From a virus, in the IMG/VR virus record IMGVR_UViG_3300009183_000177, positions 1 through 39,268 of that record: a stretch of 39,268 nucleotides of DNA. The stretch is one strand, 5' to 3'. The notes below the pieces were generated by a model. The model saw nothing but the letters and a program-made list of their open reading frames with translations. It did not search any database and was not told the DNA's origin. Shown here one piece after another: positions 8,727 through 28,817 of the stretch. Numbering within the stretch: position 1 is the first letter of the stretch; each line of letters opens with the position of its first letter. Position numbers and translations under genes: made by a program.

Positions 8727-9773
8727 GTGCCAGCGAAACCGAAACCGAAAAAGCCAGCGAGCAAGGCCAAGGCCCGGCCCGCAAAGTCCGGCAAGCCAAA
8801 CAAGCGCGACGCCTCGCAAGTGCCGGTGACGGTGCCGACTGACAACCTGGAAGCCGAGCGGAAGCTTTCGGCGATGCTAACCGGAGGCGAGCGGCCCGTT
8901 GAATACCCTTCGATGATTCTCGACATGCCCGCCGCCGAATATCATTCTCGCCGTTCCGAGATTTCCAAACACGGCCTTGACCAATTAACGGTTTGCCCTG
9001 CGAAGTATAAATACAACCTCGACAACCCAAGCGAACCGACAGCCGCGATGCGGATTGGCTCGCTTTTGCATCTATCAATTCTTGAGCCGGAAGAGTTCAA
9101 GCGAGTTACTGCATTCGTTCCAGCCGACGCGCCGCGCAAGCCATCACAAGCGCAACGTGACGCGAAGAATCCAAGTCCTGAATCCATCGCGTCAATTACG
9201 TGGTGGGATAACTTTTATGCGGAAATCGCGGGCAATGAAATCGTCACCGTTGACGAATACGAAATGCTAACAGGCATGGGAAAGGCCGTCCGCGAACATC
9301 CCGCCGCATCCGTCTTGCTCAACAAGGAAGGATGGACGGAAGCTTGCTTTTTCTGGATCGACCCGGAGACGGGCGCGAAGTGCCGCGCTCGCATGGATCG
9401 CGTGATTCCCGAGCTTCGATTGATCCTCGACATAAAGACGGCGGAAGAGGCCAGCGCCGCGAAGTTTTCCCGCGCCTGCGGAAACTTCCGTTACGGCGTG
9501 CAATCGGCGATCTATCCAGACGCCGCGCAAGCCGTTCTTGGCGACAATGACTGGCGATTTCTTTTCATCGTTGTTGAGAAAAAGAAACCGCATTTCGTCG
9601 CCGTGTATGAAGCGGACGAAATGATGCGCGATCTTGGACAAGCTGAATACCGGCTCGACCTCGCGAAATATCAAGAGTGCATCCGTTCCAACAATTGGCC
9701 TGGATACACTGACACAATCGAACCGATTTCATTGCCTTCATGGATGGCAAGCAACGATCTTGAGGAAGCCTGA
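8727..9773 (+). CDS. RecE-like PD-(D/E)xK exonuclease
   Basis: 348 residues from the GTG at 8727. Residues 1-45 are a Lys/Pro/Ala-rich tail, then MPAAEYHSRRSEISKHGL opens the nuclease domain, as in RecE and phage YqaJ/DUF3799-type exonucleases. The core has AMRIGSLLHLSILEPEEF (motif with conserved His), then KCRARMDRVIPELRLILDIKTAEEAS, which supplies the Asp and the D-x-K catalytic pair. The end has YGVQSAIYPDAAQ and FLFIVVEKKKPHFV. It degrades 5' ends to leave 3' single strands for annealing. It heads the right arm. A TTG at 8631 would overlap the helicase and was not preferred. Confidence 0.85.
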   Translation: MPAKPKPKKPASKAKARPAKSGKPNKRDASQVPVTVPTDNLEAERKLSAMLTGGERPVEYPSMILDMPAAEYHSRRSEISKHGLDQLTVCPAKYKYNLDNPSEPTAAMRIGSLLHLSILEPEEFKRVTAFVPADAPRKPSQAQRDAKNPSPESIASITWWDNFYAEIAGNEIVTVDEYEMLTGMGKAVREHPAASVLLNKEGWTEACFFWIDPETGAKCRARMDRVIPELRLILDIKTAEEASAAKFSRACGNFRYGVQSAIYPDAAQAVLGDNDWRFLFIVVEKKKPHFVAVYEADEMMRDLGQAEYRLDLAKYQECIRSNNWPGYTDTIEPISLPSWMASNDLEEA

Positions 9774-9775
9774 AA

Positions 9776-10339
9776 ATGAAACGCCTTTACTTCGACACCG
9801 AAACAACCGGATTCCCCGCCAAGGCCGGGACTCCGCTCGACCGTTGCCCTTGGATCGTTCAGATTGCTGCGATCCTGGTTGACGATGAACACGGCGAGGT
9901 TGCGTCGATCAATCAGACAATCAAGCCCGCTGGTTGGACGATCCCGGACGATGTCGCCGCTATCCATGGAATCACGACGGCCAAGGCGGAAGCGTTCGGA
10001 ATCCCGGCCCGCGTCGCGATGGCCGCGTTTTCTCAAATGGTCCGCGTCGCCGATCAAGTCGTTGCGCACAATATCAATTTCGACCTCAAGCTTGTGACCT
10101 ATGAAGTCGAGCGGGCGGGCGCTGAAAACGTTATCATTGCCAAGCCTCGATTTTGTACCATGGAAGCCAGCACGGGAATCATGAAGATTCCCGGCGCACG
10201 CGGTTACAAATGGCCGAAACTTATTGAAGCGCACACGCATTTTCTCGGAATCGGATTTGACGGCGCACACGACGCGCTTGTTGATGTCCGCGCCTGCCAT
10301 CGCGTTCACCGCCACTTGATCGACAATAATCTAATCTAA
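9776..10339 (+). CDS. DnaQ-like 3'-5' exonuclease
   Basis: 187 residues with all DEDD-family exonuclease motifs: Exo I LYFDTETTGFP (Asp7, Glu9), Exo II HNINFD (about 99-104) and Exo III HDALVDVRA near residue 160, the HxAxxD form of DEDDh enzymes. The family removes nucleotides from 3' ends in proofreading or end processing. No phage polymerase is present, so it may proofread for the host enzyme or process recombination ends. It starts 2 bases after the upstream stop. Confidence 0.9.
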   Translation: MKRLYFDTETTGFPAKAGTPLDRCPWIVQIAAILVDDEHGEVASINQTIKPAGWTIPDDVAAIHGITTAKAEAFGIPARVAMAAFSQMVRVADQVVAHNINFDLKLVTYEVERAGAENVIIAKPRFCTMEASTGIMKIPGARGYKWPKLIEAHTHFLGIGFDGAHDALVDVRACHRVHRHLIDNNLI

Positions 10340-20149: not shown

Positions 20150-22387
20150 TTAGAACGTTGATAGTGCGACTCGCTTCCATGTTCCCGCGTCTTGAACGTA
20201 TAGATAGCCGCCAGAAACGCGCAAGTATGGAGTATCCGCAGTCTGAATCACGGTAGCAACGCCAGTCGTCGTGTTGAGTGATGCCGATTGCGCCGGGTAT
20301 CGGGTTGTCGCCATATTGATTGCAAGCGTCGAATCGTTTGCCGTGTAAGGGTAAATCTTTGTGAGGGTGATTGTCGCGCCAGTTCCGCCAATAGTGTATT
20401 GCGAATAAACCCCATAGAGAGTAGCAAGCGCGGCCCTTACCTTTCCGCCAACGGTTGAGGCGCTGTCGCCACTCACAAGCGCAACGGCAACGGTGTAGGT
20501 GCTTCCGCCGATAATCACCGACGAATTATTGTTTCCGGTGCTAGAAGCCGATCCAACAAGCGTAAGGGTTTCGACTTGAGCGGTTCCCGCAATGGCATTA
20601 ACCGGCGCGGATGTCGCCGGTTTAAGTTCCTCGTCAATCGCAAAGGTTCCGTTTTTGTCTGGAAGCTCAATGATCCTATCGGCGGCGTATGCAATCGGCG
20701 CGTAAATATCGCAACGCTTCCCGCTATCAGAATACAAGGTAAGTAATCCGGAAGAGCCCATTGACGAATTGATTATCAAATGGTTGATCCCTTGATTTTC
20801 TCCCATCGCCTGAAGAAATTCAATAATGAATTGGCCAACCCATGCCGTGCGGTTCACCCAGCTTGTGAGGGTTTCGGCCTGATACCAAGCGTAAGGAACA
20901 TCATCGCCAACCCGGCACCATTGGCCGATGTATGCGGCCTCAACTTGTGGCCCGTATGCAACGTCAAGCGACGATGCGGCGGGCGAGAAATCGCCGCCGC
21001 TTCCCGGCTCGTAATCGGTTTCGGGAACCATTGCCGGCGTCCCCTCGAAATTATCCCAATCCGTGCTGATAGCGTCGTCAACGTCAACCTGGACCTTCCA
21101 ACGATCCGTTGAGTAAAACGCGGATCGAGTCGGATACGCGCCGCCGCCAAAGTAAGTCGGCGATCCGGCGTCAATGCCGGTGAAGAGAGCGACGCCGCTT
21201 GGATCGTAGCCCGTGCCAGCGACCGGAGCGCCTGCCGTGATCGTGATCGACTGCGGAATGTCTGGCGGACCTTGGAACGCGCTACGCGTCATTGCGCCAA
21301 TCAGGGACATTACGGAAGGGAACGGTGGGACGGTTGCGGGAGAGTTGCCGATAACGTCGTCAATGACCGTGCAATCGGTTTGCAAGACCGTCCATGTCGT
21401 TCCGTCGCCGATGTCGTAAAGCTCAATCTCAAGTTTCGCCGTCGCTTGTGAAGCACCGTTGAGAAGCTCAATCATCGCCGCCGTATTCGTGTTGAGCGTC
21501 CCGACGCGGCCTTTGGGAACGACAAGACCAGTTGTGTCGATTGTCGGCATCCAAACGCCGATTGTAGTATCGAAATTGAAAGTGAACAATGGCCACTCTC
21601 CAGACACGACGAGCTGTCCCGGCCCTACGGAAGAAAGCAAATCAAGAGCCGCCTGCAAGGTCGATGCGTCGGCGTCCCATGGAATCCCTAACGTTTGCTC
21701 GCCGTCGATTTCCAGCGTATAGAATCCAGAATAGGGCAAGACCGAAAAACCAAACGAGACAATCGCGCCAACCGATCCGGAACCGGCCCTAACCTCGACA
21801 ATGTCGGCAGCAGCAACCGGGAAATCATCGGTCAATTCCGCATAGGCCGCTGGAAGAGTTTCGAGACGCGCAACGGTGATTTCGCGGGTCGATCCGTCAC
21901 CCTCAACGGCAACGTGAATCTCGACGCCCGAAGTCGGATAGATTGCCGACGCGTCGGCAGTAATCGCCGTGCGAGCGCCCGCCGTGTTGAACACGATCCG
22001 GAAAGCGCCGGTTGTCGCCCTGGTAACGACAACGCCGCCCGCCGCCGTGATCGACGCAAGTGCATTCAGCGCCGTTTGAATCGTCGCCCCGTCCGCGTTG
22101 TAAGCAATCGCCGCCGTGGTGTTCGCTCCATACGTCAAGGTAAACGTTCCACTCGACGCCGCGCCCGCTGGATTCCCGATTGCGATCCGGACGGTTTTCC
22201 CCGTCAAGTCAACTTCCGACCACGGATTAACCGAATTGTTGCCGTTGCTTTTCAGCGGTCGATACGAAACCGGAATCGAATCCCCGAAAACAAAACGCGG
22301 CAAAGTCGCTTGCAGTGTCGAGAGGAAGCTTTGCACAAGCCGACCCTGGTCAAGATCGGCGAAAAGAGAGAGTTCACGGGTTGCCAT
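20150..22387 (-). CDS. Large tail/fibre protein with repeated beta domains
   Basis: 745 residues. Two homologous segments share the form 'G-x-[FY]-[TL]-L...I-x-[YW]-[DN]-A-D-[AG]-[AS]-T-[IL]-Q-[TA]-A-L': about 80-135 (SGTFTLTYG..., YNADGATIQTALNALASI) and about 220-272 (SGFYTLEIDG..., WDADASTLQAALDLLSSV). A looser third copy near 610-690 is GGKVRAALATLYGV. A later segment has a fibre-like ELPDKNGTFAIDEE. These are likely beta-sandwich modules of a tail fibre or baseplate protein. It is preceded by a TTGACAA-type element. Confidence 0.7.
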   Translation of the reverse strand: MATRELSLFADLDQGRLVQSFLSTLQATLPRFVFGDSIPVSYRPLKSNGNNSVNPWSEVDLTGKTVRIAIGNPAGAASSGTFTLTYGANTTAAIAYNADGATIQTALNALASITAAGGVVVTRATTGAFRIVFNTAGARTAITADASAIYPTSGVEIHVAVEGDGSTREITVARLETLPAAYAELTDDFPVAAADIVEVRAGSGSVGAIVSFGFSVLPYSGFYTLEIDGEQTLGIPWDADASTLQAALDLLSSVGPGQLVVSGEWPLFTFNFDTTIGVWMPTIDTTGLVVPKGRVGTLNTNTAAMIELLNGASQATAKLEIELYDIGDGTTWTVLQTDCTVIDDVIGNSPATVPPFPSVMSLIGAMTRSAFQGPPDIPQSITITAGAPVAGTGYDPSGVALFTGIDAGSPTYFGGGAYPTRSAFYSTDRWKVQVDVDDAISTDWDNFEGTPAMVPETDYEPGSGGDFSPAASSLDVAYGPQVEAAYIGQWCRVGDDVPYAWYQAETLTSWVNRTAWVGQFIIEFLQAMGENQGINHLIINSSMGSSGLLTLYSDSGKRCDIYAPIAYAADRIIELPDKNGTFAIDEELKPATSAPVNAIAGTAQVETLTLVGSASSTGNNNSSVIIGGSTYTVAVALVSGDSASTVGGKVRAALATLYGVYSQYTIGGTGATITLTKIYPYTANDSTLAINMATTRYPAQSASLNTTTGVATVIQTADTPYLRVSGGYLYVQDAGTWKRVALSTF

Positions 22388-22433: not shown

Positions 22434-23438
22434 TCAGGGAAGCCATGGAATCCGCCATTGCCGCAAATGTCCGTCATGCTCCGGATCGTCGGCGTGTCCG
22501 GTAGCAACAAGGACGTGCCCGCCGTTTTCCTTGTCCCTGATAACGTGATCGCAAGGACAGTGAGGAATGCACGCGATTTTCAAGCCCGCTGGATACCAGC
22601 GCCGGAAGTTGATGAACAAATCTTCCGTTCCCTTGCCGTCGTATCCCGTGAAGTCGCACAAGGCCAGCGCCCGCCGATTCATCATCGTGCATCCAAAACC
22701 GATCCAATCGACCGGAACAACGGACCCGCGACCGATTGCGGGATACGCGAAGTCAAACCAACCGCGTTGACGCCAGCGTTTGCCGTTGCACGCGAAAACG
22801 TTTTCTTTCGGCGGGACGGATCGTATCTTCCTTTCGATCTCTTGAAGCTCGTCACGGGCTTTCTGCTTTTGCTTTTCCGTGCCCTTGCCCGCCAGCTTTT
22901 GCAGCGACTCGCGCTTTTTCGTTAGTTCCTCCGGAACGTCTTTTTCATCCTCGTAAAAATCGGGCAAGATCGGGTTTTGCGGAGTGCCGCGCCCGCCAAG
23001 GAATGCGCCGCCGCCCTGCGATGGATACGGGCAAAACGTCACCGAATAAAACCCGCCGTCGAATTGAATCATGTCGATCATGCTCCGGATCGCGTTGGAT
23101 GGCGGCAGAACGTCGGAATCAAGAGCAAGGCAAAGATCCGCGCCCCATCCGATAGCGAAAGAGCTTGCGGCCTGTCTCATTGATGCGATCAAAAGTTGCG
23201 CCGCTTCCTTGTAATTCTCGCCGCCCTTCCTGTCAGTTAGAATGGTCTTGACCGATATTCCAGCCGACTCGTAAACGGCCTTTGCCGGTTCAACTTCGGC
23301 CTCGTCATCGGTGACGAAAACAAAGACAAGATCGGTGATCCTTGATTCAAGCGACAGCCCGGCAATGATGCGTTGCGCTTGAGCTTTCAAGGCGACGCCG
23401 TAACCGGATGTCGCGGCGGTATAGATGCAAAGTTTCAT
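22434..23438 (-). CDS. GT-A type glycosyltransferase in the tail module
   Basis: 334 residues with a GT-A fold. An N-terminal MKLCIYTAATSGYG and VFVFVTDD strand comes first. A catalytic DxD-like DSD (residues 107-109) sits in LCLALDSDVLPP. The acceptor half has VDWIGFGCTMMNRRAL (244 on), TEDLF (271-275, probable general base) and HCPCDHV with two His, as in GT2-like enzymes. A charged coiled-coil insertion (165-210) interrupts the fold. The ATG overlaps the stop of the Ser/Thr-rich gene (ATGA), so both are coupled. It probably glycosylates a virion protein or a host surface glycan. Confidence 0.75.
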   Translation of the reverse strand: MKLCIYTAATSGYGVALKAQAQRIIAGLSLESRITDLVFVFVTDDEAEVEPAKAVYESAGISVKTILTDRKGGENYKEAAQLLIASMRQAASSFAIGWGADLCLALDSDVLPPSNAIRSMIDMIQFDGGFYSVTFCPYPSQGGGAFLGGRGTPQNPILPDFYEDEKDVPEELTKKRESLQKLAGKGTEKQKQKARDELQEIERKIRSVPPKENVFACNGKRWRQRGWFDFAYPAIGRGSVVPVDWIGFGCTMMNRRALALCDFTGYDGKGTEDLFINFRRWYPAGLKIACIPHCPCDHVIRDKENGGHVLVATGHADDPEHDGHLRQWRIPWLP

Positions 23439-25999
23439 GGAGTTCTAACGTGTGGAGTTGATGAAAAGTAAAAAGGGATTTCGCCCGCGCCCGTCCAGTT
23501 CGCGGTAAAGATCGGTTCAATCTGAAAAACGATTCCCTTGCTTCCTGGAACGGTGAAAGAAACGGTGCCGTTGCTGCCGCTGGTCGAGAACGACGCGGAT
23601 GCCGTCGATTGACCGGCGCTGTATTCCGTCCATTGCGCGAATCCGGATCGGGCAAACACCGTGTAAGGATGGCCAAGGTTGTTGTCGCCGACAGCATAAC
23701 CGCCGATGAGTTGAAACGATTCTTCCGAGTGAATCGAAAGGTTGTCTTCGCTGAAAAATGTCCCTCCGATGGATGAGACGCCTGCAAGGGTGTAGGTTGC
23801 GAGCCGACTTGTCACTTGCGAGGCCGTTCCGCTCGATGTCGTCGCCGTGGTGGTGCTTGTCCATGTCACCGCGACTGTCGCCGTGCCGATTGACGAAAGG
23901 CCCGCCACGTAGCTTGCACGCGCCGCGCCGGGCATGTCGAAAGTCAATCCCGGATCGACAGGATACAACGTGACACCTGGATAAGCCGAGACGGTAGGAA
24001 GCGGCCCGAATTGGAATGACTGGCCAGAGAACGCGGACCCGGCGACAAGCCCGGCCTCGACCGTGAACTTGACCGCCAGCGTCGAGGCGTCGAACGCGCC
24101 TCCGAATCCGGCGTAACCGTAGGGCAAGACCGAAAACCGAGCCTTGTCCATGATTTCCCAGATCCCGCCCGTGAATTGATAGTGATCCCATCCGTCCGGC
24201 GTTGTCCGAAGTTGTGGCAAGGCCCGGTATTTCGTGAAGTTCGTCACGTTGATTGCCTCATGCACGGATGACGTTTCGCCATTCGCGCCGCCGACAAGCG
24301 AGTAACTGGAAACCGTCGTGAAGTTTCGCGCTTCCTGGTTGAAATGCGAATCATAAAGGCTTTGCGAGGTTGTCGTTGCGAAATCGTAAACGCGAGTCGT
24401 CGCCGTCGAGACTTTGCCGAGGAAAAAGTAACTCGTATCCGTCCCGCTCATGTATGACGAATAAGAGTTGATTAGAACCTGATCCAAGGTCGTTGACCTC
24501 AAGACGATGTCCATTGACGTTGTGGTCGAGTGCCACAAGGCAAGCCGCGTTTCGCTGAATGACGAGCTTGCGAAATAAGCCGTTTCCGTGGTCGAGGTCC
24601 AAGAGAAGTTAGACGTATCGTATCCGGTGACTTGGATCGAATGCGTGAAGAGCGTTGTCGAGAACGTGCTTGTGCCATAAGTCCAAGTCGAAAGCGATGT
24701 TCCAACGTCGCCGATTGAAAACGTGTGATTGACGGTCGAGGTATTGGACGCGGCCAAGCTGATTCCGGTTGTCGCCGCCGTGCCGGTTGCCGTGCCCGTT
24801 CCGGTGACAATCGTTGTCGTGCATGACTCGTATCCGCTCCATGCCGACCCGCCCTTTGAAAACACCACAACCGTTGCGCCCGTCGAGGCCGTGCCCGTTG
24901 CAGTGCCCGTGCCGGTGATTGTCGAGGTCGTAGAAGTGACCGTGTTTTGACTGAATGCAATCTCACTGATCGCAATCGAATTTGTCCGATACTTTTCATA
25001 ATCGGACAACGTCACCGTCGCCGCCCCGGTCGAGGCGAAAAGATTGGTGAACCTGCCGACCGTCGAGGCCGTGTCGCCAAGAGCGGAAAGCGTGAAGTGC
25101 CAGAGCATGTCGCCAAGGTTGAAATCATTCTCGCCGCGCCCGCCGTGCATGAGCAAAACAGTGTCGATCTTTTGCGCGTAGGCGTGCCCGGTGACGGTTT
25201 CATTCGTGACGGGAACGGTGAATGTCCCGCTTGTCGCCGTGTTCGTCGTGGTCGAGGTTGAGGCGTGAACCGTTGTCCTGTCGCCCGCATGGGTGACGGG
25301 CGTTGTGATCGTGTCCGTTGTGTCCGTCGTGTTTTGCGTCAAGCCCTGCGAAAGCGTCCACGTCGAGCTTGACGTTGCCGTTTGCGTCGCGTTCGTGGAA
25401 ATCGTGAAAGAGCCGCTAACCGTTGTCCAAAAGGAATTCCCGAAAGTCCCTGTCGATTCCGTTTTCGTTGTCCAATCGTCAACCGTTTGAACGAAACTTC
25501 CGATAAACGTTGTCGCTCCGTTGTTCGTGTAAGTCGTCTTGTAACGGGTTGTGGTGTCGGTATCCGGTGGATCGGTGAAGCCGTTGACCGTCCGGCCCGA
25601 GGCTTGCTGATAGGAGCTGAAAGCCGACGTGTCGTTAGTGACTTGCGCTGTCGTTCCGTGAAAGCTTTCCGTCGAGGTTGTCAACAGAGTATAATTGAAC
25701 GTCACGGTGATAGTCCCCGTGCCGTCAAACGACGTTGCCGTTGATGGATTGTAATGATAGAAATCCTGAATGCTCTTGCCCGTGTCCCCGGTGTATTTCA
25801 TCCCATAGGAACTCGCCGCGTAAACCCACTCGGAAACGTTAGACGATTGCGCGGTTTCCGTCCTGTCGGAAGTGTAAGCCGTGTTTCCAATGCTGGAATG
25901 CGCCGATTGAGACTCGACAACCGAAAGGACATGCGTTCCCGCTCGCCACGTATCCGGAGCGGTGCCGCCGTTGCTTTGGATGTAAGTCCACTCATCCAT
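23435..25999 (-). CDS. Ser/Thr-rich tail fibre-like protein
   Basis: 854 residues from the ATG at 25999 (8-base overlap with the upstream gene). Nearly the whole first 550 residues are extraordinarily rich in Thr and Ser (for example TITTPVTHAGDRTTVHASTS), with few Lys or Glu, and carry the duplicated word TGTGTATGTA. The C-terminal 300 residues are a beta-rich domain (PYGYAGFGGAFDASTLAVKF, then VTWTSTTTATTSSGTASQV). It looks like a long fibre or tail-surface protein. The Ser/Thr density and coupling to the glycosyltransferase suggest O-glycosylation. No family recognised. Confidence 0.7.
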   Translation of the reverse strand: MDEWTYIQSNGGTAPDTWRAGTHVLSVVESQSAHSSIGNTAYTSDRTETAQSSNVSEWVYAASSYGMKYTGDTGKSIQDFYHYNPSTATSFDGTGTITVTFNYTLLTTSTESFHGTTAQVTNDTSAFSSYQQASGRTVNGFTDPPDTDTTTRYKTTYTNNGATTFIGSFVQTVDDWTTKTESTGTFGNSFWTTVSGSFTISTNATQTATSSSTWTLSQGLTQNTTDTTDTITTPVTHAGDRTTVHASTSTTTNTATSGTFTVPVTNETVTGHAYAQKIDTVLLMHGGRGENDFNLGDMLWHFTLSALGDTASTVGRFTNLFASTGAATVTLSDYEKYRTNSIAISEIAFSQNTVTSTTSTITGTGTATGTASTGATVVVFSKGGSAWSGYESCTTTIVTGTGTATGTAATTGISLAASNTSTVNHTFSIGDVGTSLSTWTYGTSTFSTTLFTHSIQVTGYDTSNFSWTSTTETAYFASSSFSETRLALWHSTTTSMDIVLRSTTLDQVLINSYSSYMSGTDTSYFFLGKVSTATTRVYDFATTTSQSLYDSHFNQEARNFTTVSSYSLVGGANGETSSVHEAINVTNFTKYRALPQLRTTPDGWDHYQFTGGIWEIMDKARFSVLPYGYAGFGGAFDASTLAVKFTVEAGLVAGSAFSGQSFQFGPLPTVSAYPGVTLYPVDPGLTFDMPGAARASYVAGLSSIGTATVAVTWTSTTTATTSSGTASQVTSRLATYTLAGVSSIGGTFFSEDNLSIHSEESFQLIGGYAVGDNNLGHPYTVFARSGFAQWTEYSAGQSTASASFSTSGSNGTVSFTVPGSKGIVFQIEPIFTANWTGAGEIPFYFSSTPHVRTP

Positions 26000-26594
26000 T
26001 GTATTGCACCCATCGCCACCAGCGCGAATAAGGCTCGCCACCAACGGCGGGCGCTGTTTTCGTTTCCCGAAAAACCTCTTGCGCGATCATGTCGAGATTC
26101 ACGGCGACGATCATTTTTCCCGTCTGCTTTCCGACAGCGCCAAGCACAATCTTGAACTCGACCGGAGGCGTATCCTTGGCAATGGAATCCTCAGTTGGCG
26201 CGGCAGTGTCGAGGCTGATCGTCACGCCGGTTACTTTCCCGGATTCAGTCGTCACCGTGATGACGACAAATTTCAATGAATCGTCGGACGGAAGCGTGAA
26301 CTTGTCGTTCCAGTTTCCAGCCGGAACATTGTTGACCGTCGCGAGATTGAATCGGCACTTGTAAACCGGAGCCTCCGAAGATCCTTCGGTGAAGAAAGAC
26401 GGCCTCCAAGGGACGTAGGTTGACGATCCGCCGCGCTTGGCTTTCCGTGGAGGCGTGATGACCGTCCCGCCGAAAAAGTGATTGATTCCACCGCCAGCAA
26501 TGCCCGGCGTCCGGCGTTCGATGGCCGCAAGCAAGCGCGGATCTCCCGGCGTTCCGAGGTCCGGGAATGCGTTTGCTTTTCGGTGCCGTTCCAT
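25992..26594 (-). CDS. Distal tail region protein
   Basis: 200 residues from the ATG at 26594 (TGATG overlap with the gene before). A Gly/Pro-rich N-terminus (RTPGIAGGGINHFFGGTVIT) precedes a beta-rich domain (AGNWNDKFTLPSDDSLKFVV, ITVTTESGKVTGVTISLD) and an end WWRWVQYNG. Tail structure by position; no family recognised. Confidence 0.6.
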   Translation of the reverse strand: MERHRKANAFPDLGTPGDPRLLAAIERRTPGIAGGGINHFFGGTVITPPRKAKRGGSSTYVPWRPSFFTEGSSEAPVYKCRFNLATVNNVPAGNWNDKFTLPSDDSLKFVVITVTTESGKVTGVTISLDTAAPTEDSIAKDTPPVEFKIVLGAVGKQTGKMIVAVNLDMIAQEVFRETKTAPAVGGEPYSRWWRWVQYNG

Positions 26595-27286
26595 CACTTG
26601 TAAATCTTTATAGAGAATCCGTTAGGACCGCTGCCAAGATATTGTTCCGTGCATTGGTAGAAACTCCCGATTTGACGATACGGGATGTCGAGCAAAAGGA
26701 AATTCTTCACGTCGGAAGGTTTGCGGAATCCTGGAATGCTGGCCTTGATCGACATGCGTTTCGTGAGACTCGGAACGCTCGATTGCCAATATGTAAGCGA
26801 CACCATCGTTGCCGGGACAAGGTAATGCGCCGCGCCGAAAAGATCCTTGATTGCCTGATCGTAAAACCCGAGGAATTCCCCCGTTTCGTCGTCAAACTTT
26901 GCGCCGTTTTTCGGACTTGCTTTCGTGCCCGCGAATTCCTCAAACAACGGATGCGTCTCGATTGGTTCCTTGTCCGTGTTCGGCGTGTAAGCAAGAACCG
27001 GCTCAGTCTTGTTTGAAATCAACCCGAAGTAGGAAGCCACAAGTTGAACCTTACGAAGCGGCAAATACGTGATGTCGCGGTTATAGATTTCGCATCGCGA
27101 CTCGCGAGGATGCGGCGCTTTCATTCGCGGAAGATTCGCGAAATGATCCATGTCCGTTAGAAACGTGACGTTTCCTTCAATCGTCCCGTCGTTCTTTTCG
27201 GTCAAAGAATAATTCGGCTGGATGACGACGCCGTCCGCGTAATGTTCGGCGGCATTTCCATGCTTCTTGATGTTGGAGCTTGCCAT
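26594..27286 (-). CDS. Tail protein downstream of the tape measure
   Basis: 230 residues from the ATG at 27286; the longer frame was rejected because its start would lie inside the tape-measure gene. Features include HGNAAEHYADGVVIQPNYSL and YNRDITYLPLRKVQLVASYF. The gene follows the tape measure by 4 bases, a position often held by distal tail or minor tail proteins. Confidence 0.65.
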   Translation of the reverse strand: MASSNIKKHGNAAEHYADGVVIQPNYSLTEKNDGTIEGNVTFLTDMDHFANLPRMKAPHPRESRCEIYNRDITYLPLRKVQLVASYFGLISNKTEPVLAYTPNTDKEPIETHPLFEEFAGTKASPKNGAKFDDETGEFLGFYDQAIKDLFGAAHYLVPATMVSLTYWQSSVPSLTKRMSIKASIPGFRKPSDVKNFLLLDIPYRQIGSFYQCTEQYLGSGPNGFSIKIYK

Positions 27287-27290
27287 TTCG

Positions 27291-28817
27291 TTAGATTGGT
27301 TCCGGTGGTTTCGATCCTTCCGAGCCTCCCGCCGTGTTGGCGGCGATTTGAGCCAGCAAATCGACCATGCGGCGCTGTTGATCGTTGTCCATGAGGCGAG
27401 CGCCGCCGCCGCCGCCAATGTCCGCCAGCGAGCTTGTCGCGATGGTTGGCACGGCCTTTTGCGCGTCGGCGAGCTTCTTTTGCAAGTCTTCATTCAGGCC
27501 GCGTGTGATGCCGTCAATTTCCCCGGTCAATTGTTTGGCCTTGTTGGAAAATTCGAGACTCGATTTCGTGTCGCCGCGTGATTTCGCGTCGCCGGAATCC
27601 TTGATTGCCTGGGCACGTTCTTTTTTCAGGAACTCGCGCTTTTCCCGATCATCCATCCCGGCAAGCTTGTTTGTCCGGTCGATCTCCGCACCCTTTTCGG
27701 TCAACGTCTTGATCTCTTCCGCCGATTTCTTCCGCTGGTCGTCAAGTTCCTTGTCGTTCGTGGCTTGCTCTTCACGGTATCCGGCAATCTCTTTCTCGAC
27801 TTCCAATTGCTTTTTCCGAGCCTCAAGAGCTTTCGTTTCATCCTCGCCAAAGATCGCGTCGGCAGCGAGTTCGGCCCGGCGCTTTTCGGCGTCGAGGATC
27901 TTTTCAGTGAGAGACAACGCACGAATCCGCGCATCCTCTTCAAGCTTTGCGATGTCCTCGCTTAACTTCTTTTTTTCCTTTTCGGTTTCGAGTTGTTCCT
28001 TGGCGCTTTGCGCGGCAGCTTCCGCCTTGGCCTTGGCGTCATCCTTGCCGGACCCGCCGCCCTGAATCATGGCGTCAAAACGTCTTTCAAGTTGAGCGTC
28101 GGCGATGTCGCCCGATCCGGTTGCCTTGTTCAAAAACCATTCAAGGTATGCGCCCGCGATTTTCAGGCCGTCGATAACATTTCCGAGCCATGCGACGCTT
28201 TTCGATTTGAGCGCGTCGTAAGCGTCGCCAATCTTGGCCATCGTCTCGATTTGCTCATTTGAGGCAACGGTTGCCTCATCCAGCATTGCCGTAAGCTCTT
28301 CCGGACCTCCCGCAAGCATCGGAATGATTTCCGCGCCGCTCTTGCCGAGCAACTTCATGATCGCGGAAAGCGCCGCGCCCTTGTCCGCGCTCGCCTGGTA
28401 TCCACGCGCAAGCTCGATCATTTGTCCTTCCGGCGACATGCCTGCAAGTTCGGCAAGGTTGACGTTCAAGGCCGCTGCCGCGTCGGCGAATCCATCGCCG
28501 CCATTTTCCGCTTCCGCAAGATTCTTCGTTAGAATCGTGAGAGCCTTACCGACGACTTCCATGTCACCGCCTGAAAGCTTGCTCGCGTAGGAAAGCCGCT
28601 GGAAGCTTTCGGCGGACATGCCGAGGCGCTTCGATAGATCGTCAATCCGGCCCGCCGCGTCGAGCGTCGCCGATACCCAAGCCGTGATTGCGCCCGCGCC
28701 GAATAGCCCGGCAAGCTGGCTTTTCGCCGACGCGGAAAATTGTTTCACGTCACTCCGCATTTCGTTCAACGAACGGCGGAAAGGTGAAGTGTCAGCGCCA
28801 AAAACCCATTTAAGCAT
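27291..28817 (-). CDS. Tape measure protein
   Basis: 508 residues. The N-terminus (LKWVFGADTSPFRRSLNEMR) is the 'v.gd.s.f...l......' start typical of tape measures, followed by a hydrophobic Ala/Gly stretch (LAGLFGAGAITAWVSATLDA). Residues 60-215 are helical with GAALSAIMKLLGKSGAEIIP. Residues 265-455 are a long charged coiled coil (KAEAAAQSAKEQLETEKEKK). At about 1.5 angstrom per residue the tail would be near 75 nm, short for a siphovirus; this is an estimate. It sets tail length and passes through the membrane. Confidence 0.85.
   Translation of the reverse strand: MLKWVFGADTSPFRRSLNEMRSDVKQFSASAKSQLAGLFGAGAITAWVSATLDAAGRIDDLSKRLGMSAESFQRLSYASKLSGGDMEVVGKALTILTKNLAEAENGGDGFADAAAALNVNLAELAGMSPEGQMIELARGYQASADKGAALSAIMKLLGKSGAEIIPMLAGGPEELTAMLDEATVASNEQIETMAKIGDAYDALKSKSVAWLGNVIDGLKIAGAYLEWFLNKATGSGDIADAQLERRFDAMIQGGGSGKDDAKAKAEAAAQSAKEQLETEKEKKKLSEDIAKLEEDARIRALSLTEKILDAEKRRAELAADAIFGEDETKALEARKKQLEVEKEIAGYREEQATNDKELDDQRKKSAEEIKTLTEKGAEIDRTNKLAGMDDREKREFLKKERAQAIKDSGDAKSRGDTKSSLEFSNKAKQLTGEIDGITRGLNEDLQKKLADAQKAVPTIATSSLADIGGGGGARLMDNDQQRRMVDLLAQIAANTAGGSEGSKPPEPI

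Follow-up and report, generated by a model that had tools for sequence, protein, structure and literature searches.

A putative two-gene virion-glycosylation cassette in environmental phages: a GT-A glycosyltransferase coupled to a Ser/Thr-rich tail-module protein

We analyzed a 39,268-base virus record (IMGVR_UViG_3300009183_000177; the whole stretch is referred to as the window), in which the head and tail genes, among them terminase, portal, protease, major head protein, and tape measure, are located on the minus strand. At positions 22434-25999, a gene for a predicted glycosyltransferase of fold type A (GT-A) follows, and overlaps with, the gene of a Ser/Thr-rich protein. These two tail-module genes of a siphovirus-like phage appear to constitute a cassette for virion glycosylation, in which the enzyme O-glycosylates the adjacent tail protein (probability of approximately 0.77). 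A functional link between the two, in the simplest case that of enzyme and substrate, was strongly supported by the GT-A fold, a near-universal adjacency in diverged phages, the retention of this adjacency through an inversion, and a joint absence. O-glycosylation of the coupled fibre had been proposed in the initial annotation: the functional pairing was upheld by these four lines of evidence, while the nucleotide-sugar donor, O-linkage, neighbour as the acceptor (the sugar on the fibre), virion location, and cytoplasmic timing are what we infer from it. The features concerned are as follows.

22434-23438, minus strand: GT-A glycosyltransferase gene (GT), an open reading frame of 334 residues (AlphaFold2 model and structural GT-A matches)
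23435-25999, minus strand: Ser/Thr-rich tail-module protein and proposed substrate, an open reading frame of 854 residues with ATG at 25999 (33% Ser+Thr)
23435-23438, minus strand: ATGA overlap between the stop of the 854-residue gene and the start of the enzyme (open reading frame list)
25992-26597, minus strand: m2, a conserved tail-module gene (~200 residues) that in nearly all loci immediately precedes the Ser/Thr-rich gene
27291-28817, minus strand: tail tape-measure protein (phrog_9483, E = 4.9e-21)

Both open reading frames and their overlap were exactly as first described, and the position of the tape measure placed the pair in the tail module. Enzyme relatives in IMG/VR, two close ones and then nine in earlier rounds, finally numbered 138, of which 80 loci were kept; when enzymes more than 90% identical were removed, 54 non-redundant loci remained. 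A partner, defined as an adjacent protein of at least 300 residues with at least 24% Ser+Thr, was found in 44 of these 54 loci; of the 217 other large proteins encoded there, 2.8% reached this Ser+Thr content. The usual order, in loci found via the enzyme alone, began with the tape measure and a small tail gene or two, followed by m2, the Ser/Thr-rich gene, and the enzyme, and the gap or overlap of the last two was within 60 bases in 42 of 43 non-redundant loci of this upstream type (exactly 4 bases of overlap in 14). In one clade of the enzyme tree, the enzyme was inverted and preceded by an ordinary 142-residue gene; its convergent neighbour contained 24-33% Ser/Thr, and the same loci carried an m2 homologue. 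This is a single rearrangement with adjacency retained. A phage-encoded enzyme was thus found in linkage with a structural-module gene, as would be expected of a phage virion-glycosylation system.

Relatives with the enzyme and without any Ser/Thr-rich neighbour had been named at the outset as evidence that would speak against the pairing, and one real-looking exception emerged: locus L010, a partial contig of 36 kb on which neither a Ser/Thr-rich gene nor a tail module was seen. The enzyme of L010 and L176 was the most isolated relative, on a contig with several carbohydrate-type genes (judged by eye), and its acceptor may differ. The Ser/Thr-rich gene was one place further upstream in L003 and L017, and a truncated one was found three places upstream of the enzyme in L135. 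The other candidate exceptions were dismissed: L136 was a gene-calling artefact with the Ser/Thr-rich frame present, L031 and L005 were cut by the contig end, and the enzyme gene of L140 was a remnant lacking its N-terminal part.

The joint absence of the two genes was found with anchors other than the enzyme. When m2 was used, the enzyme was present in 23 of 28 and 22 of 22 contigs of two subgroups, and in all of the enzyme-bearing contigs the Ser/Thr-rich gene adjoined the enzyme or, in two near-identical contigs, was one gene further upstream. With m3, the next gene upstream of m2, as the anchor, 26 of 34 contigs carried the enzyme, four complete contigs did not, and four were cut off. A gene with 26-36% Ser/Thr was located between m2 and the enzyme in 26/26 enzyme-bearing contigs, and a Ser/Thr-rich gene in 0/4 of the complete enzyme-negative contigs (raw Fisher p = 4e-5, relatedness being ignored). 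In the latter (L106, L107, L109, and L110), only m2 residues 1-68 to 1-93 matched, and everything directly downstream differed. The C-terminal half of m2, the Ser/Thr-rich gene, and the enzyme appear from these alignments to be exchanged as one block, like host-range modules. The N-terminal part of m2 itself was conserved, and the mismatch pattern pointed to a recombination junction inside this gene.

The 854-residue protein consists of 20% Thr and 13% Ser. The Ser/Thr dominance reported initially was evident, but not its confinement to the first two-thirds: in segments of 100 residues, Ser+Thr amounted to 31-45% as far as residue 600, dropped to 13% in residues 600-700, and was again ~30% in residues 700-854. 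Homology to the equivalent L004 protein (649 aligned columns at 25% identity, composition-adjusted E = 1e-6) backed the reading frame; no matches were obtained when the Ser/Thr-rich protein was itself used as a query. The 96 partners fell into ~41 groups unlinked by BLAST at E = 1e-4, while the enzymes stayed 36-59% identical to the window enzyme; beside the enzyme, to judge from these alignments, composition is conserved and sequence is not. In Ser/Thr content, the partners (median 29%, up to 43%) exceeded the further fibre-like proteins that these phages encode downstream (median of 22% and maximum of 27%; p = 3e-7); the tail fibre of phage P8625 contains 23%. Since Lys, Arg, and Glu were depleted and Tyr and Phe enriched, with Pro at 3.8%, the composition suggests that the partners are beta-rich fibres with a defined fold, and not disordered like Pro-rich mucins. 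Strong conservation of Ser/Thr sites was not found: in one clade, Ser/Thr-to-Ser/Thr pairing was 1.64-fold higher than expected, below the charged or aromatic classes, which would fit modification without strict site choice or the absence of a position constraint.

The window enzyme gave no match above the curated cut-off with Pfam, PHROG, or NCBIfam profiles, and no PDB match from the single sequence. Among 63 relatives, from which the invariance and motif counts below were also obtained, the best family hint was Pfam Glyco_tranf_2_3 (six members, best E = 8e-4), and PHROG matches were isolated and weak. An AlphaFold2 model built on the alignment of these 63 sequences had a mean predicted local distance difference test score (pLDDT) of 95.2 and a predicted template modeling score (pTM) of 0.91, compared with a pLDDT of 49 for a three-row alignment. 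In structural comparisons, COLGALT1 was the top match (Z = 19.4, 3.3 Å over 227 residues; 11-14% identity, LH3 included), followed by the solved GT-A structures of LH3 (18.9), Mnn9 (18.4), chondroitin polymerase (17.7), and GalNAc-T2 (16.3); the predicted structure is that of a GT-A glycosyltransferase. The fold match with COLGALT was strong, whereas the corresponding sequence-profile match (GT25, E = 0.32) was a weak lead. The specific sites are as follows.

23112-23120, minus strand: DSD motif, residues 107-109, presumed metal/nucleotide-sugar site (D109 invariant in 63/63)
22620-22628, minus strand: TED motif, residues 271-273, presumed xED motif (T271 and D273 invariant)
22545-22547, minus strand: His298, candidate GT-A C-terminal histidine (invariant in 63/63, as is His293)
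22821-22931, minus strand: strongly charged helical-hairpin insertion, residues 170-206 (model and alignment)

The GT-A set comprises D/E-x-D (107-109), the glycine-rich loop GxG (247-249), T-E/Q-D (271-273), and His298, the roles of which we take from general knowledge of GT-A families. D109, T271, D273, H293, H298, G247, and G249 were invariant in all 63 relatives, while the first position of DxD and the middle position of TED varied. The latter two (residues 107 and 272; window 23118-23120 and 22623-22625) covaried among the 63: D/E in 16 members, the window included, and E/Q in 47, never mixed, as expected if both residues share one active site. The 16 D/E members seem to be one part of the enzyme family, and the two positions may have switched together only once. 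The original GT-A assignment from DSD and TED, both at the residues given for them, was therefore borne out by the model and structural matches. The reported coiled-coil insertion also proved real, as a helical hairpin: helices at 170-185 and 188-206 were modeled with confidence, and the element was kept in 63/63 relatives, with a length of 35-66 residues and 51% Lys/Arg/Glu/Asp; it might, as suggested initially, dock on the fibre. No strongly hydrophobic transmembrane segment was found in the enzyme.

Four enzyme queries found no relatives in 50,697 phage records. On genome contigs, a first scan found none and a broader scan eight loci: five of Verrucomicrobiota (by label or membership), one of Planctomycetota, and two of betaproteobacterial metagenome-assembled genomes (MAGs). 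Two of the five Verrucomicrobiota copies belonged to Chthoniobacter flavus, one being a broken copy in isolate Ellin428. This copy (L140; NZ_ABVL01000003.1), matching residues 150-331 only and N-terminally broken, was in an apparent prophage remnant of a cultured isolate. Verrucomicrobia phage P8625 was among the closest annotated matches of the window terminase (24%). The hosts are likely Verrucomicrobiota and Planctomycetota, although assignments of phage contigs to MAGs can be wrong.

Several observations weigh against O-glycosylation of the adjacent protein. Enzymes acting on protein and polysaccharide acceptors were not separated by the structural matches, chondroitin polymerase and Mnn9 being within 2 Z units. 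The four enzyme-negative contigs represent approximately three lineages of one clade and recur in the m2-anchored set; the enzyme was not elsewhere on them, but they are genome fragments and may derive from genomes that carry it in another place. Furthermore, the neighbours in L027, L032, L033, L039, and L062 contained only 18-23% Ser/Thr, within the ordinary fibre range. It is conceivable, if rather unlikely, that the enzyme glycosylates another virion protein (m2, the downstream fibre, or the tail tube) and that the Ser/Thr-rich protein is a mere beta-rich fibre of the same exchangeable module. Phage fibres are moderately Ser/Thr-rich in any case (the median of 22% above), the C-terminal half of m2 was swapped along with the cassette, and mycobacteriophage enzymes act on capsid and tail tube according to the account in PMC12619734; nevertheless, the inverted enzyme adjoined the Ser/Thr-rich gene and not m2, m2 normally contained 11-25% Ser/Thr, and partner content was clearly above that of other fibres in the same phages.

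Phage glycosyltransferases commonly modify phage DNA or, in serotype conversion or superinfection exclusion, a surface glycan of the host; such a function, with the neighbour irrelevant, would agree with the polysaccharide enzymes among the structural matches and with the L010 enzyme sitting amid other carbohydrate genes. We consider it very improbable here: the enzyme was in the tail module in nearly all loci, was absent jointly with the Ser/Thr-rich gene, and, unlike membrane Gtr enzymes, has no strongly hydrophobic segment, and no DNA-modification genes were seen beside the pair. There is similarly little chance that the protein, despite its GT-A fold, is no catalyst but a structural component of the tail, either lectin-like or inactive. 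The motifs were ExD and TQD, and not DxD and TED, in 47 of 63 relatives; on the other hand, the invariance of D109, D273, and both histidines together with the covariation of 107/272 looks like maintained catalysis, and nucleotide-sugar genes co-occurred with the enzyme.

If O-glycosylation of the neighbour is adopted, the upstream gene would yield a beta-rich, Ser/Thr-rich tail-tip or fibre protein and the translationally coupled downstream gene a soluble GT-A glycosyltransferase. The latter would take nucleotide sugars in the cytoplasm, from the host or, in some relatives, supplemented by the phage, and O-glycosylate many Ser/Thr residues of its neighbour close to translation, before or during tail assembly. 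Cytidylyltransferase-like and RmlD/epimerase-like genes were directly downstream of the enzyme in three loci.

L002, 11058-12334: cytidylyltransferase-like and RmlD/epimerase-like genes
L005, 2561-3837: the same pair of genes
L007, 6480-7726: the same pair of genes

The cytidylyltransferases of L005 and L007 were 94-96% identical to that of L002, though the other genes of L007 looked more diverged, and this high identity suggests strong constraint or a recent transfer of that part. Epimerase/RmlD genes were also beside the pair in L011 and L049, and the sugar-related neighbours included a GDP-mannose-dehydratase-like gene. In L003, a 197-kb virus record, a sulfotransferase-like gene (9253-9951; weak Pfam match, E = 0.034) was located between the Ser/Thr-rich gene and enzyme; one further neighbour matched sulfotransferase more clearly (E = 2e-6). 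No nucleotide-sugar or sulfotransferase-like gene was recognized next to the pair in the window, so that this phage would depend on host nucleotide sugars. Separately, an additional fibre is apparently encoded by the 745-residue gene downstream of the enzyme (20150-22387), which matched tail-protein families in its N-terminal part (phrog_10909, E = 3e-8).

The likeliest role is in host recognition, by a glycan added to or hidden on the adsorption apparatus, and shielding of the adsorption protein is also a plain candidate. Immune evasion, suggested initially, was set aside as having no support: the relatives on genome contigs came from Verrucomicrobiota, Planctomycetota, and Betaproteobacteria (MAGs, apart from one isolate). 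A speculative and quite unlikely extension is that the tail tip is densely coated with glycans, sulfated in some phages, that imitate the polysaccharides on which the hosts feed, so that glycan-capture proteins of the host bind the phage by glycan mimicry, with no phage lectin. This was hinted at by the likely hosts, the sulfotransferase-like gene of L003, the nucleotide-sugar genes, and the exchange of the cassette like a host-range module.

Phages that glycosylate their own virions are known, while both the present enzyme family and its association with a tail protein rich in Ser/Thr look new: a full-text literature search gave no paper in which a Thr-rich tail fibre and a glycosyltransferase occurred together. 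If the proposed function is true, this would be a widespread, unannotated enzyme family of environmental phages with a physically linked, composition-conserved substrate, and a simple two-gene system to study protein O-glycosylation; virion glycosylation, documented for capsid and tail tube in a few mycobacteriophages, would then also include the adsorption apparatus, in phages of Verrucomicrobiota and their relatives. An enzyme beside a tail protein with more than 24% Ser/Thr may serve as a genomic signature for more cases.

COLGALT1 and LH3, the closest solved folds, are both protein O-glycosyltransferases, and act on hydroxylysine. The GT-A fold is also common to GalNAc-T2 (GT27) of mucin-type O-glycosylation, with the Ser/Thr-rich acceptor as an analogy; unlike GalNAc-transferases, the present enzyme has no lectin domain or sequence family match, and its putative acceptors are not Pro-rich. 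In bacterial serine-rich-repeat adhesins, dedicated glycosyltransferase genes adjoin the gene of a Ser-rich surface adhesin, which resembles the present pairing; however, GtfA/B are GT-B enzymes acting on exported repeats, and no accessory secretion system was seen at the present loci. Mycobacteriophages (Che8, Corndog, and Myrna) glycosylate their own capsid and tail-tube proteins with their own enzymes (Freeman et al. 2023, as cited in PMC12619734, PMC12363180, and PMC11256854). The Che8 products gp109 and gp110 were rejected as relatives of the enzyme at the sequence level (hhalign probabilities of 2.2 and 0.3), and the Che8 glycosyltransferase genes 108-110 are at the genome end, whereas the present enzyme is in the tail module. 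According to those accounts, the C-termini of capsid and tail-tube proteins are modified in mycobacteriophages, while the partner of the present enzyme is a tail-module protein very rich in Ser/Thr; in both cases, phage-encoded glycosyltransferases act, here putatively, on structural proteins of the phage itself.
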